Source of the DNA: Parasphingorhabdus cellanae
Lineage (GTDB): Bacteria; Pseudomonadota; Alphaproteobacteria; Sphingomonadales; Sphingomonadaceae
Reading direction: 5' to 3'
Assembly (NCBI RefSeq): GCF_017498565.1
Contig: NZ_CP071794.1
Coordinates: forward strand, 496,001 to 560,000
Length of the DNA: 64,000 nt
In this document: positions 1,543 to 28,493 of the stretch, piece after piece
How positions within the stretch are numbered: the stretch's first letter is position 1
Layout: each line of letters opens with the position of its first letter
Program-made: the position numbers and the translations under genes
Notes under the pieces: model-generated
Told to the model about the DNA's origin: nothing
The model's database searches: none
What the model saw: the letters and a program-made list of their open reading frames with translations, nothing else

Positions 1543-2160
1543 TATTAGATACCTCCCGCCAAATCCGCTGCATATTGCTCGGACACCAAGGGGCATTTTG
1601 GCGTCATTGAGACAATATGCAGCGGCGGACCATGGCTCTCCCGGACCAGTTCGGCAGAGCGTTTGTTGGAGAAAGAAGCCAGGTCACGGTGATTGTGCCA
1701 TATTGTCGGTCCGAAAGATCGCGCACCTATGTGGGAACAAGTTTTGTGCGTAGGGACTTCGATCCGGCTTATGGTTCTGCGCAAATTATGACACCAAATT
1801 TGCATTGGCATACTGTCATTTGACGCTCCGTCACTCACGTGCATTCCAGTCATTATCTTTCCCAATAGCTGGTCCTAAAAAACCGCACCTGAAACTGTGA
1901 AATGCGGCTGACAATGACTTCGCAAACGCTATGCCAGTTTTTACGCCCCAATATTTTCTATAATTCTCAAAGCCTTAGCGAAGACTGGTGCGGGCTGAGC
2001 CAAATTTCTGACTCCACTCCGTCAAACTCCTGACAAAGCGGTATTTTTATGACGCGCCATTGCGTCGTTAAATCTATTCCGGTGCGATCCGTTCTTTCTG
2101 CATGAGGCCGCCACTCTTTCAACCATCTGGCGCCCCTCTCGTTCTTGAAAGGAAAATTAT
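1543..2160. promoter_or_regulatory. Divergent regulatory region between fliE and flagellin
   Basis: This gap of about 620 bases separates fliE (leftward) from flagellin (rightward). It holds the fliE ribosome-binding site, and GAAAGGAA just before the flagellin ATG. On the minus strand TGGCAC at 1695-1700 matches a sigma-54 -24 element, but the -12 position reads CCGT instead of TTGC. TGACA recurs at about 1791, 1916 and 2031. I could not find a convincing sigma-28 box for flagellin, although FliA is encoded nearby. Short open frames here look like chance. Confidence 0.5.
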
Positions 2161-2976
2161 ATGACGATTATCGGAACCAACGTCGCGGCTTTGCGCACAA
2201 ACTACGCCGCCAACAGTGCGGAAATGAGTCTCGCCAGATCCATTGAGCGCCTGTCCACAGGCCGCCGCATCAACAGCGCCAGCGACGATGCGGCCGGTCT
2301 TGCGGTGGCGACGCGGATGACAGCAGAAATCCGGGGTCTCAATATGGCAGCACGCAATGCTAAAGATGGTATTTCCCTGACGCAGACCGCAGAAGGCGGC
2401 CTGAACGAAATTAACAGCATGCTGCAGCGTATGCGCGAGCTTGCCGTCCAGTCTGCCAACGGCACATTGGCAAATACCGATCGAGTGAATTTGCAAGTCG
2501 AGGTAGCAGCCCTGATTTTGCAGGTTGAGGATGTTGCCACGCGCACCACCTTCAACAATGTGGCTTTGCTCGACGGCACCAATACGACCGTGGAAATCCA
2601 AACCGGAAACAAAGCTGCTGAAATTGTAGCCATCACTCTTACCGATGTTGACGGGGCAGCTTTGGGTATTGCTGGTTTGGATATCGCTACTGCTGCTGGT
2701 GCGACTGCCGCGCTTGCGGTTCTAACGACTGCTATGGATACAGTCACGACAGCTCAGGCATCGCTGGGTGCATCGCAAAACCGGTTGCAGGCAACAGTAT
2801 CGAACCTGAATGACCGCTTGGCCAATCTTACCGAATCCCGATCGCGCATCGAAGATGTCGACTTTTCCGGTGAAACCACTGCCCTTTCCAAGGCGCAAAT
2901 ATTGAGCCAGGCATCTACTGCGATGCTCGCCCAAGCCAATCAGACACAGCAAGGCGTTCTGAGTTTGATCCGTTAA
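2161..2976 (+). CDS. fliC: Flagellin (short type)
   Basis: Flagellin is the filament subunit, exported through the flagellar apparatus and polymerised at the tip. The 271-residue product has the conserved N-terminal domain ([20 protein letters not shown] near residue 27) and the C-terminal D1/D0 helices ([21 protein letters not shown], then the hydrophobic tail ending LSLIR). The middle is very short, so the surface domains D2/D3 of enterobacterial flagellins are absent; such minimal flagellins are common in alphaproteobacteria. GAAAGGAA precedes the ATG. It is monocistronic, closed by a strong terminator at 3007-3052. FliA dependence is likely because fliA and flgM are nearby, but no clear promoter was seen. 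Confidence 0.95.
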
Positions 2977-3006
2977 GTCACTGGTCTGCTTAACTGATCT
3001 TAAGGT

Positions 3007-3052
3007 CCCCGGCGCCGATTAAACCCCACTATCGGCGTCGGGGGCTATTTTT
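3007..3052 (+). terminator. Rho-independent terminator after flagellin
   Basis: A 13-base stem (CCCCGGCGCCGAT at 3007-3019 against ATCGGCGTCGGGG at 3031-3043, one G-T pair) with an 11-base loop is followed by a T-rich run at 3048-3052. It lies 30 bases after the flagellin stop. Confidence 0.9.
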
Positions 3053-3142
3053 CGTTTAACCGATGAATTATATATGTTGATCTCGAAACGCTCCCTCATG
3101 ATCCGAGCACAAAAAATTATGTCGATATCGTCGCGGAAAAAG

Positions 3143-3874
3143 CTATTCGCTGTGAGCCAGTAGTTTATGCAGTTTTTCCAACGCAGCCTTTTTAATCTGA
3201 CAGACACGGGACGCCCCGATATCAAGCGTTTGTCCAATCTCTTCCAAATTCATCTCTTCGATAAAATAGAGTTGCAAGATCAAGCCTTCCCGTTCGGGAA
3301 GAGAGTCGATTGCATCGGCCAATATTTTTTGCCTTTGATGACGCTCGACCCGATCATCGGCTTTTTCCGTAGCATCAGAAAACCAGATGTTCTGATCGGA
3401 ATAAACTTCGTCCATCGACTGTAGTTCAATCGCTTCTGCATTGTCTTTAGCTGTCTCAAAACTCTGTTGATCCATATTCATGGCGGCGGCCAATTCCACT
3501 TGACTGGGCGTGTGACCTAGCTTCTGTGCCAGATCCTCCTGCGTTTCACGCAGCTGTTTCTGAAATTGCATTGCCGACCGGCTGATACTGCTCTGCTTAC
3601 GCAACTGATCAATCATGGCCCCGCGCACACGCAATTTTGCATAGTTGGTAAAACCCAAACCGCGATCCTCAAAGCCCTGAGCCGCTTCGACCAGCGTCAC
3701 CATTCCGATCTGCAACAAATCCTCGATTTCTATAGCCATAGAAATACGAGAGTGGACGTGCCAAGCCAGTTTCCGAACGAGCGGCAAGTGGCTGTTGATC
3801 AACTGCTCCTGATCAGGCGCGGATGGACTAGGTCCGTAGGTAAATTCTGACAGCTTTGGGTCAAGATATGTCAC
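3143..3874 (-). CDS. fliA: FliA, flagellar sigma-28 factor
   Basis: FliA directs RNA polymerase to late flagellar promoters such as flagellin. The 243-residue product has region 2 (EDLLQIGMVTLVEAAQGFEDRGLGFTNYAKLR, where the RGAMIDQLRK helix is typical of FliA), a region 3 with the TPSQVELAAAM helix, and region 4 (LPEREGLILQLYFIEEMNLEEIGQTL and the DNA-reading helix ASRVCQIKKAA). The start is a GTG at 3874, overlapping the flhA stop by four bases (GTGA), which indicates translational coupling. FlgM, its anti-sigma factor, is encoded at 6472-6759. The flhF and fleN genes that usually separate flhA and fliA are absent here. Confidence 0.94.
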   Translation of the reverse strand: MTYLDPKLSEFTYGPSPSAPDQEQLINSHLPLVRKLAWHVHSRISMAIEIEDLLQIGMVTLVEAAQGFEDRGLGFTNYAKLRVRGAMIDQLRKQSSISRSAMQFQKQLRETQEDLAQKLGHTPSQVELAAAMNMDQQSFETAKDNAEAIELQSMDEVYSDQNIWFSDATEKADDRVERHQRQKILADAIDSLPEREGLILQLYFIEEMNLEEIGQTLDIGASRVCQIKKAALEKLHKLLAHSE

Positions 3875-26122: not shown

Positions 26123-26139
26123 TGGAGCGGGTGAAGGGA
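26123..26139. repeat. Attachment-site copy A (tRNA-Gly 3' end duplicate)
   Basis: TGGAGCGGGTGAAGGGA is an exact copy of the 3' end of the tRNA-Gly gene (CCA, acceptor and part of the T stem) at 28420-28436. It marks the outer end of the two tandem modules. It is followed by about 70 bases also found after copy B. Confidence 0.85.
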
Positions 26140-26274
26140 TTTGGTTATTATAGTCCTTTTAGAAGGCAGTGGTTTAGCAAGATATCTCACATATTTTCCA
26201 ATGTCCGCTTTTGCGCGGTGGTTTCAACTGATCGTCGCAACACTTTAATCTTTAGATTTGAATGCTGACCAGTC

Positions 26275-27051
26275 TCAGCGGATAAAGTACCCAACTGCCT
26301 TCCAAGTGCTTCCTTCTTGTATGAGCACAAGTGTCTCTATAGCCCCACGTTTATTCGCAAAGTCCGACTGAAATTCGATTAGTTCGTACTCACCATCAGG
26401 AGCGCCCGGCAGCGAGGTCGCTTTTGTGACCTTGAGGATCGAACGAGATAGCAGGGTTCCCAAAGGATCACGAACTGACAATATCTTCGAGGACCAATCT
26501 TTTTCCGAGATCTTTGAGCGGAAAAAAGAACCTGCGGTGTGCCAGCTTTCTCCCCACTTTTGATCGTCAACTAGCATCAACCATTCCTTGCCGGATGCAA
26601 TGCTAGCGGCTTGGGATACATCAATGTTTGTCATAGTTTTTTGATCTGTGGAATCTACAGACGTTTCGCCACTAGACATAAAAATGGCAGCTGCAACAAT
26701 TACTGACAACACGGGCATTCCTCCTCCAAGCCAAGCTAGAATAAAGACCAGTTTGCGGTTTTTGGCGGGCTTTTCATTTCTATGAGCATCAGTTCCGGTA
26801 TCAGATACCCCCATTTTCTTGGCCACAAAAATATTGGGGTCTGCATACTCTGCGAGAGCCAAGATACGGGCAGCCTCTCGGCTGCTTGTAACACTCAATT
26901 TCCTTCGAGCATCACGTAATCGATCATTAATGGTGTACACCGAAAGATTAAACTCACGAGCGATGGACTTTGCGTCATGGCCAACAAGAAGAAGCCGCAA
27001 CGTCTCTTTCTCCTTTTCTGTCAGTGCACCAATATCGTTTCGCATTCTCAT
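26275..27051 (-). CDS. HTH (LuxR-type)-transmembrane-DUF4019 protein
   Basis: The protein couples an N-terminal LuxR/GerE-type DNA-binding domain (LTEKEKETLRLLLVGHDAKSIAREFNLSVYTINDRLRDARRKL) to one membrane segment (LVFILAWLGGGMPVLSVIVAAAIF) and a C-terminal DUF4019 domain outside the cytoplasm (SGKEWLMLVDDQKWGESWHTAGSFF and the closing WKAVGYFIR). Membrane-tethered one-component sensing is the likely role; ligand and targets are unknown. The frame is open 87 codons further upstream, but the extra residues resemble no domain; ATG 27051 or 27045 is preferred. It is the only gene of mini-island 1. Confidence 0.75.
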   Translation of the reverse strand: MRMRNDIGALTEKEKETLRLLLVGHDAKSIAREFNLSVYTINDRLRDARRKLSVTSSREAARILALAEYADPNIFVAKKMGVSDTGTDAHRNEKPAKNRKLVFILAWLGGGMPVLSVIVAAAIFMSSGETSVDSTDQKTMTNIDVSQAASIASGKEWLMLVDDQKWGESWHTAGSFFRSKISEKDWSSKILSVRDPLGTLLSRSILKVTKATSLPGAPDGEYELIEFQSDFANKRGAIETLVLIQEGSTWKAVGYFIR

Positions 27052-27332
27052 GATTCCCAATTCACAGAGCTTTTTTATTCTAGGTAAGGATGAATATCCA
27101 CCTTGCTTTTGTTTTACGAAATGACTGTGGTTTGTGGCATTCGTTAGTATCGTCGCGGACCAACTAAAATCTAGTATCCGTTTACTCCTGCGACGATCAA
27201 TTGAAATCGCAGGATAAAGCGGATATCGGTGGACTGATTCACCGGGCTTTTTCGCGAGATTATAACGCACTTTTGTCATCTCGCTAACCTCAATAGGCGC
27301 AAGACTAAACAATATGCTTTGTTTTAATAACT

Positions 27333-27349
27333 TGGAGCGGGTGAAGGGA
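27333..27349. repeat. Attachment-site copy B (tRNA-Gly 3' end duplicate)
   Basis: TGGAGCGGGTGAAGGGA again, identical to copies A and C. It lies at the junction of the two modules. Confidence 0.85.
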
Positions 27350-27410
27350 AGTGGTTACTATAGTCCGTTGCAGAAAACATTGGTTTAATGCAGCCTTTAA
27401 CATATTTGCC

Positions 27411-27441
27411 AATGTCCGCCCTAGGCGCAAAAGCGGACATT
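27411..27441. repeat. Inverted repeat at the end of mini-island 2
   Basis: AATGTCCGC (27411-27419) and GCGGACATT (27433-27441) are perfect nine-base arms around 13 bases. The right arm with its loop, read backwards, matches the sequence after the left arm at 26200 (AATGTCCGCTTTTGCGC). A related GTCCGCTTTCG lies at 28264. Confidence 0.7.
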
Positions 27442-27455
27442 AGAAATCGGGCTAG

Positions 27456-28217
27456 TTAAGAAACAGTCTCCGTAATCTGCTTAATTTGATAGTGTTTGGG
27501 GATACGTAGACCTCCCTCAGCGATCTCAGCCTGCAATTCATCTGAAAAACAGATTAGCCACTCGCGAAATGCTCGTTCCCGCCACAGGTGGGCACTGCCA
27601 AATGTAGCCTTGGCAAGAGCTAATCCGGTGACGCCCTTTTTTGATTGCTCAAGACTGTAATAATTGGGGTAACTTGGACCGTGATTACGAATTGACTCTC
27701 GTTTGCTTTTCTCCGGCAAAAAGCTGTCAAAATATTGCCCGATAAACAGAGTATAATAAGAACTAGGGTAAACTTTGTTCCTTGGCATTCTAACTTCTAT
27801 GGAAGAAAACTCATGCTCGCCCGGTTCCAGCCGTTCAATTATCGTCTTTAGCGCCTCATCCACCGCCAAAATGCGACCATTTAACATGATAAGGGATCCG
27901 AGTGATTTATAGCCTTTTTCGGTCACAAAAGACCGTGGCGGTTCATGAGCCTCGATCGGACAAAAAGGTGGCTTACCAACGCCCGATACCATCCCACGCT
28001 CGCTTATGAATTTTTGTGCAACATAGTATGAGTATGCTCCTGGTCCATTTCCCATACCGTCATCGAACAGCGCCTTCTGCTCCTCAGACATTTTCTCCTT
28101 GTAATAGGCCTTCAGGCGATCGCCCCACTCATCGTCGTCAGAATCGATATGCGCCTCGAAGTTGCCCATCGGAAAAAACTCACCAAAACCCGAAGGTAAA
28201 CTCATTCCCCAAACCAT
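27456..28217 (-). CDS. Imm11-family-like (DUF1629) protein, orphan immunity candidate
   Basis: The 253-residue product looks like the Imm11/DUF1629 group of contact-dependent toxin immunity proteins: an N-terminal region of variable length, the middle VDEALKTIIERLEPGEHEFSSIEVRM segment where Imm11 proteins have an LEPGxHxF-type motif, and a C-terminal FSDELQAEIAEGGLRIPKHYQI. The match is by pattern only. No polymorphic toxin lies beside it, so it would be an orphan immunity gene. ATG 28217 is chosen with GGGAG upstream; a GTG precedes it by one codon. Base composition is more AT-rich than the neighbours, in line with transfer. Confidence 0.55.
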   Translation of the reverse strand: MVWGMSLPSGFGEFFPMGNFEAHIDSDDDEWGDRLKAYYKEKMSEEQKALFDDGMGNGPGAYSYYVAQKFISERGMVSGVGKPPFCPIEAHEPPRSFVTEKGYKSLGSLIMLNGRILAVDEALKTIIERLEPGEHEFSSIEVRMPRNKVYPSSYYTLFIGQYFDSFLPEKSKRESIRNHGPSYPNYYSLEQSKKGVTGLALAKATFGSAHLWRERAFREWLICFSDELQAEIAEGGLRIPKHYQIKQITETVS

Positions 28218-28365
28218 CACCCAATCTCCCGCATCTCTGAGTTATAAGCCTGCCCAATCCTAACGTCCGCTTTCGTGATAAAACAAGTATTCGTTAAAAG
28301 ATGCTATTTTATAACGATACAAACTCGTGCTACCAAGCATAGGGAAAAGTTACTTTTTTTCACAA

Positions 28366-28382
28366 AGGGAATCGAACCCTCA
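28366..28382. repeat. Partial tRNA-Gly T-arm duplicate
   Basis: AAGGGAATCGAACCCTC is identical to 28431-28447 within the tRNA. It covers the T stem and loop but not the acceptor end, so it differs from att copies A and B. Confidence 0.75.
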
Positions 28383-28419
28383 TATTTTATCTTTTTATTT
28401 GAATGGATTAAGGATTTCG

Positions 28420-28493
28420 TGGAGCGGGTGAAGGGAATCGAACCCTCGTCGTAAGCTTGGAAGGCTTCTGCTCTACCATTGAGCTACACCCGC
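28420..28493 (-). tRNA. tRNA-Gly (anticodon TCC)
   Basis: The minus strand folds as a cloverleaf: acceptor GCGGGTG with CACCCGC, D arm GCTC...GAGC, anticodon loop CTTCCAA giving TCC, T arm GAGGG-TTCGATT-CCCTT. The discriminator is T and CCA is encoded (28420-28422). It reads GGA and, by wobble, other Gly codons. Its 3' end is att copy C for the mini-islands. Confidence 0.95.

Follow-up and report, generated by a model that had tools for sequence, protein, structure and literature searches.

Units and shell at the tRNA-Gly(TCC) gene

The tRNA-Gly(TCC) gene of Parasphingorhabdus cellanae lies within a 64-kb stretch (the window, G000:C1:496001-560000) of a 3.78-Mb genome assembled as one contig, which we label G000; other G numbers denote comparison genomes. 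The 17 bases at the 3′ end of this gene, TGGAGCGGGTGAAGGGA, recur exactly in tandem, with copies at 26123 and 27333 in addition to the one within the gene at 28420-28436, and no further match was found in the 64 kb at up to three mismatches. Since 100 shuffled sequences gave a mean of 0.12 and never more than one match, three exact copies are beyond chance expectation. These repeats, hereafter cores, delimit a distal unit B (cores 26123 to 27333) and a tRNA-proximal unit A (27333 to the tRNA), each with one main gene: a LuxR-type helix-turn-helix (HTH) and DUF4019 gene in unit B, and an Imm11-family gene in unit A (Table 1). A close homologue (76%) of one of the cargo proteins comes from Parasphingorhabdus. 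The original prediction had read the locus as two related, integrase-less mini-islands stacked by successive integration and presumably moved by an integrase acting in trans, and its three repeats, its single gene per interval and its missing integrase are all borne out: the nearest of the nine PF00589 matches in the window genome lies about 290 kb outside the window. We arrive at a different anatomy, in which an outer shell anchored at the tRNA gene encloses a gene bounded by palindromes.

The shell consists of the core together with a left end (LE) of about 107 nt and a right end (RE) of about 60 nt that are common to three species (G000, G270 and G243). In searches with a profile spanning LE, core and RE (model R1), both ends were strong in these three, weak in G269 (LE E 1.2e-7, RE E 1.3e-5) and marginal in G153; the shell ends of G269 and G153 are truncated. 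Other R1 matches at these loci comprised the tRNA end or its repeat, and a palindrome in G275 at E 0.15. The original prediction had proposed looking for the end sequence in relatives, and the core-adjacent shell ends were found only at this tRNA, both among 391 genomes (best five candidates scored per genome) and among 32 genomes of the genus (best 67). Of the weak matches elsewhere, those examined in G569, G003 and G428 (alignment only) contained the tRNA end and little more, with G250 as the exception. Scanning 397 genomes of the family, 10 of them from the genus, with a gapless 36-base RE pattern retrieved one, the window genome itself, which is a weak negative because a one-base indel makes the pattern miss unit B. 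An exact LE pattern retrieved two records from the genome collection, G270 itself and one Omnitrophica contig (a match by pattern only). Carriage by phages or plasmids was considered and rejected: there was no phage match, the exact patterns of the ends occurred in none of the viral contigs, and the five matching plasmid records match solely inside the LuxR/DUF4019 coding region.

Occupied and empty sites could be compared directly, as had been suggested. The stretch from the tRNA to glpD was matched in 32/32 genomes of the genus and a close copy of the AMP-ligase gene on the other side in 13, and the two lie within 7 kb of each other in nine of these 13. Five of the nine sites are empty (G272, G273, G263, G251 and G274), with about 80-160 nt between the two matches, and four are occupied (G000, 2.4 kb; G270, 3.7 kb; G243, 2.6 kb; G153, 6.5 kb). 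The two flanks are 111-137 kb apart in G268, G269 and G275 and on separate contigs in G257; the tRNA side was examined in 28 other genomes (all but G258, G260 and G266), some of whose contigs end near the tRNA. Because occupied and empty sites both occur in the genus, the units are real insertions. The flank of occupied G270 is identical to that of empty G272 at 95/99 positions up to the core, and insertion or loss was therefore exact there. The distal core carries three mismatches in G270 and two in G243, and TGGAGCGG is constant in all copies compared; this would place the outer-layer crossover there, in the final 8 bases of the tRNA gene. In G269, the 5′ half of a tRNA-Gly lies beside glpD and a full tRNA-Gly 6 kb away (L100, 2340-8545), as if the gene had been split by another insertion.

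The age of the shell bears on how the units came to lie side by side. One may postulate two integrase-less satellites that arrived successively at tRNA-Gly with the help of an integrase in trans and carried their genes as plain cargo; the related right ends, the att repeats, the empty sites and the lack of a nearby integrase would all suit this scenario. So would the divergence between the RE of unit A and that of unit B (identity 0.78), which equals that between species (0.68-0.80) and therefore does not reflect a recent duplication, and, when gaps are counted, the LE of unit B is closer to that of G270 (0.87) than the flank is (0.68), which could mean a later transfer; other pairs show no clear difference. 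Over aligned bases, however, shell identity (LE 0.78-0.89, RE 0.68-0.80) is close to the 0.80-0.81 measured for the flank in the same species pairs, and the left ends of the two units are unlike; the relatedness proposed for the two elements is seen at their right ends and is not recognisable at their tRNA-proximal ends. A tree built from portions of the AMP-ligase and glpD genes in 12 genomes (midpoint root; support of deeper nodes 35-68) pairs G270 with the empty G263 (99), places the likewise empty G272 and G273 beside this pair and leaves the occupied G243/G153, G269 and G000 outside. About two losses account for this distribution, whereas the satellites would demand four gains. Given a divergence like that of the flank and a tree that needs fewer losses than gains, an old insertion that was sometimes lost fits better than repeated arrivals, and the stacking proposed originally finds no support in these comparisons. 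We regard the satellite scenario as improbable.

Both units could instead be the decayed remains of larger tRNA-Gly islands that once had an integrase, their palindromes (see below) having been brought in by later rearrangements, a history whose outer layer would be compatible with the two-layer anatomy. Precedent comes from the integrase-less, att-flanked islands described at ssrA in Dehalococcoides (PMC3146451), and the mismatched distal cores of G243 and G270 (two to three mismatches) and the truncated ends of G269 and G153 point the same way. On the other hand, units with both ends measure 1.1-3.7 kb, and tblastn with seven integrases of the window genome and two short recombinases revealed no integrase remnant in the occupied units. 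There was likewise no PF00589 match at this tRNA among the matches listed for 32 genomes (listed to about E 1e-16). As to a helper element, none that carries an integrase between the same ends was seen in the R1 searches (391 genomes under strict filters, best five each; 32 genus genomes, best 67) or when genome and viral contigs were scanned for the exact patterns. The integrase that was expected to use this tRNA was absent from it in the loci examined; one may act in trans on the outer layer. On balance we judge such decay from larger islands somewhat unlikely.

Inner palindromes and exchange of cargo

The inner layer of a unit is a gene between two palindromes, type1 (CTARTGTCCGCTWTGGGCGCAAAAGCGGACAYTAG) on the RE side and type2 (CTAATGTCCGCTTTCGGGATAWWGCRGMCA) on the LE side. 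The RE terminates in type1 and the LE starts with type2, in equal polarity, in the shells of the window, G270, G243, G269 and G153, whether intact or decayed; unit B keeps only halves of both palindromes, and the G153 shell has extra sites inside. This arrangement revises the related end sequence of about 70 bases that had been described after the repeats. The sequences from the first and second repeats onward are indeed alike (79% identity over 89 alignment positions, the repeat counted), and their last 30 nt or so are a separate, dispersed palindrome. The idea that the whole end sequence is a dispersed repeat finds no support for the core-adjacent part, seen only at tRNA-Gly in the genomes searched, and holds for the inner part of about 30 nt, which is type1.

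The clearest comparison is between G270 and G243. Homology runs from glpD through the tRNA and the LE to 2 nt from type2, and resumes at type1 (0 nt) through the RE into the AMP-ligase gene. Between these points G270 carries a LysR regulator and an isochorismatase-domain protein, and G243 an M1 peptidase; the cargo of the G269 shell is a GFA-family gene. A shared shell with differing cargo means that one platform holds different genes in different species, and a switch of cargo exactly at the inner palindromes is something that successive satellites do not predict. The converse also occurs, in that a homologue of gene A (77% protein identity) lies inside a type1-type2 cassette of G268. The DNA of the two cassettes is 82% identical over a stretch that starts 6 nt outside type1 and stops within type2. 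In the next 100 nt beyond either end, similarity is at the level of shuffled sequence, and the shell is not shared; the G268 copy is at C1:306.5 kb, and the tRNA-Gly of that genome is on C2. Homologues of gene B at other places, in G203 (70%) and G153 (65%), share the gene and nearby DNA only.

Two further loci are recorded here as observations in their own right. In G275 (L102, ~1727-3461), tRNA-Gly is accompanied by a 45-nt repeat with different ends, a second shell type, in which one DUF2971 gene lies between type1 and type2. Elsewhere, G275 (L187 1-3059) and G268 (L224 1584-4665) share a chromosomal stretch at 91% identity that ends 5 nt from type2 in both, a possible shared array site.

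Type1 folds as a strong hairpin, and no Rfam family matches the palindromes (78 kb searched, two tRNA matches only). It is also present in genomes without the shell, namely G203 (exact or near, three loci) and G151, a genome of another genus (one mismatch).

Taken together, these results lead us to favour, as moderately probable, two nested layers: an integrase-less shell anchored at tRNA-Gly and, within it, a gene cassette bounded by palindromes. The anatomy and the exchange at palindromes are well supported by a few strong sequence comparisons, and the outer layer would resemble a cis-mobilizable element (CIME) or an old att-flanked relic that can be lost exactly.

The remaining features of the two units are collected in Table 1. 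The start of gene B was set from homologues of 256 aa, the longest open reading frame (ORF) extending to 27312. Unit A contains, in its tRNA-proximal end and at a distance of 38 nt from the tRNA, an exact copy of the tRNA-Gly T-arm; the surrounding 19-mer has no second copy in the window genome at up to one mismatch, and no explanation was kept for it. An 18-nt inverted repeat (one mismatch) sits just inside the half-palindromes of unit B and is absent at up to four mismatches from the G203 and G153 loci of the gene B homologues; it could represent the ends of an older small element.

Table 1 Features of the two units at tRNA-Gly(TCC), in window positions
Feature	Positions	Strand	Evidence
Distal 17-bp core, copy of the tRNA-Gly(TCC) 3′ end	26123..26139	.	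Exact match
RE, unit B	26140..26198	.	Alignment with RE of unit A, G270, G243
Type1 palindrome, half, decayed (unit B)	26199..26216	+	
18-nt inverted repeat in unit B, left arm	26222..26239	.	94% complementary to 27189-27206
Cargo gene B, LuxR-type HTH + DUF4019, 256 aa	26275..27045	-	Pfam PF00196, PF13211
18-nt inverted repeat in unit B, right arm	27189..27206	.	
Type2 palindrome, half, decayed (unit B); start of homology to the G270 left end	27212..27225	+	
LE, unit B, with short inverted repeat GCGAGAT/ATCTCGC	27226..27332	.	Aligns with LE of G270, G243, weakly G269
Middle 17-bp core	27333..27349	.	Exact match
RE, unit A	27350..27411	.	
Type1 palindrome, cassette A; near the homology boundary with the G268 copy	27413..27439	+	
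Cargo gene A, Imm11 (DUF1629) family, 254 aa	27456..28220	-	Pfam PF07791; 77% homologue in G268 type1-type2 cassette
Type2 palindrome, cassette A, decayed	28264..28289	+	
tRNA-proximal end, unit A; no recognisable homology to other LEs	28290..28419	.	
tRNA-Gly T-arm copy, exact, 17 nt	28365..28381	.	
tRNA-Gly(TCC), target site	28420..28493	-	ARAGORN

Gene arrays around a 208-aa tyrosine recombinase

Some short tyrosine recombinase genes of the genus have matches to the palindromic portion of R1 beside them. Five such genes, each encoding 208 aa, were examined (two in G153 and one each in G275, G268 and G243); the genes around them are separated by type1 and type2 sites, in arrays that extend to both sides of the recombinase gene. 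A census of 41 loci (679 kb in five genomes, the stretches mostly picked for having matches) counted 193 sites, 101 of type1 and 92 of type2, against 0 in reversed sequence. The same stringency returned one site in the window and 0 both in the tRNA-Gly regions of other species (13 loci, 145 kb) and in nine further loci with empty or rearranged sites (68 kb). Among 37 pairs of sites less than 40 nt apart, 34 have the composite form type2-9 nt-type1 (consensus CAACGCTAG) and 36 have equal polarity. Type1-to-type2 intervals shorter than 2.5 kb number 30 (37 intervals in all), and 25 of the 30 hold exactly one ORF of at least 60 aa.

The recombinase gene is itself framed by sites, lying between inverted type1 copies 697-699 nt apart in 5/5 cases, with its stop codon abutting one of them. 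In locus-to-locus comparisons of this unit, homology ends 0-9 nt from the framing sites (9/9). Across genomes more generally, 20/41 homology ends have a site no more than 12 nt away in each of the two partners, as against 0 in each of 15 shifted controls.

In the protein, R59, H156, R159, H182 and Y191 align with XerD and K87 was assigned by eye; we take these residues to be catalytic. Counts of R1 matches at E <= 0.1 (all model parts, best 67 candidates per genome) are 12-20 for each of the four genomes that encode the 208-aa protein, and G269 has 19; in the other 27 there are five in G270, four each in G272 and G273 and at most three in the rest, 13 of which have none. The window genome has no 208-aa recombinase among its nine PF00589 matches, at whose loci only two Xer-like proteins resemble it (32 and 28%). 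The wider family is large, with at least 8000 proteins at E <= 1e-3. Among 72,556 plasmid records, 384 carry relatives at E <= 1e-30, the majority of them less than 65% identical. Clear arrays outside the genus were not seen in three of the four plasmid records examined (of the 384); in the Pseudoalteromonas spongiae plasmid (L218, 1071-8800), a relative with 61% identity is accompanied by four repeats of about 116 nt between genes, with related short copies flanking the recombinase. A sister family of recombinases of about 210 aa, 52-56% identical to the 208-aa protein, has GTCCGC-type sequences nearby in G263, G275, G243 and G089 (L191, L192, L193 and L195).

One explanation for these arrays is that the 208-aa recombinase acts between two type1 sites. 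A cassette would then exit as a circle of gene, type2, linker and type1, and this circle may enter another type1 site, including one inside the tRNA-Gly shell. We infer this role from the position of the gene, the form of the sites and its own framing by type1; its action on type1 and type2, the formation of circles and the direction in which events ran are likewise inferred.

Several observations weigh against such a system. The shell lacks the 9-nt linker, which leaves cassette entry into it unexplained. Among the 20 coincident homology ends, 18 belong to the recombinase unit and only two to anything else. Site order is loose (81 same-polarity neighbours 40-2500 nt apart comprise 46 type1-type2, 17 type1-type1, 14 type2-type2 and four type2-type1), and gene orientation within cassettes is mixed. 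G269 has many sites and no relative of the recombinase in the stretches examined. At tRNA-Gly itself, the loci examined revealed no recombinase that could carry out the tRNA step, and the tRNA-proximal end of unit A aligns convincingly with no other LE and fits no model. The comparisons rest, moreover, on one genome per species.

An alternative would treat the palindromes as ordinary dispersed repeats, similar to repetitive extragenic palindromes or terminators, with cargo exchanged through RecA and the recombinase a passenger, akin to an insertion sequence, that uses type1 as its own ends. The strong hairpin of type1, the scatter of sites in some genomes and the 18/20 homology ends contributed by the recombinase unit alone would be expected in that case, and RecA exchange could likewise break at repeats. 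It would not readily account for two distinct site types in equal polarity (36/37) with a conserved 9-nt linker (34/37), or for one single-gene cassette in two contexts, and we consider it quite unlikely.

With no such recombinase among the nine PF00589 matches of the genome and its palindromes partly decayed, both units in the window are probably fixed relics, and it is doubtful that either layer is still active there. We would suggest only tentatively, as a possibility somewhat short of even, that they are outposts of an undescribed cassette system, separate from integrons and dif modules, in which a short recombinase of a very large family would gather and exchange mostly single genes at paired palindromes in two-way arrays and would also place cassettes in other sites, the tRNA-Gly shell serving as one such landing platform.

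Relation to known cassette and island systems

The usual example of bacteria that store single genes in the form of interchangeable cassettes is the integron. The cassette interpretation, if true, would add a second such system, with unrelated sites and a short, abundant recombinase. It would offer a testable mechanism for many of the single-gene differences seen between strains and left unexplained so far, and GTCCGC palindromes dispersed in genomes would serve as its markers. For the wider relatives of the recombinase, cassette movement would be a candidate function only. No description of such a system was found in open-access articles in PMC, judged by titles and the beginnings of abstracts.

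The recombinase recalls the short tyrosine DNA invertases of the FimB/FimE type, sharing a length of about 200 aa, little N-terminal domain and sites with inverted arms. It differs in scoring 23-25 bits with PRK09870, against a cut-off of 221, and in being found with gene arrays. A classification of tyrosine recombinases distinguishes 14 'simple' subgroups, among them the Xer, integron-like and Rit groups; we did not find a place for the 208-aa family in it.

The outer layer has the structure that defines CIMEs, attL and attR flanks with no integrase near. Dehalococcoides is reported to have integrase-less, att-flanked islands in tandem at ssrA, likewise inserted where an RNA gene ends on its 3′ side (PMC3146451). 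The units described here share these traits with CIMEs and ssrA islands and differ in their small size (about 1-4 kb, one to few genes) and in the inner palindromes at which genes are exchanged. The inner layer resembles the dif (pdif) modules found on Acinetobacter plasmids, in which a few genes are enclosed by short sites, each built of arms around a short spacer. Those modules have sites in alternating, inverted orientation and use XerC/XerD (PMC13141974), whereas here close neighbours keep one polarity (36/37) and the arrays contain a short recombinase of another kind.

Integrons share the general outline: a tyrosine recombinase beside arrays, cassettes mostly of a single gene, and imperfect palindromic ends. 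The two 208-aa proteins tested, out of five copies, scored only 19.2 and 23.6 bits with TIGR02249, however, against a cut-off of 265. The R-box motif of attC sites, RYYYAAC...GTTRRRY, was also missing from the composite sites tested: 0/10 (10 of the 34 composites, both strands, with 30-nt flanks) had RYYYAAC/GTTRRRY boxes. The present arrays have, in addition, two palindrome types joined by a 9-nt linker, extend to two sides and frame the recombinase gene by inverted sites. The cassette system thus works like an integron and, by the tests made, is not one.

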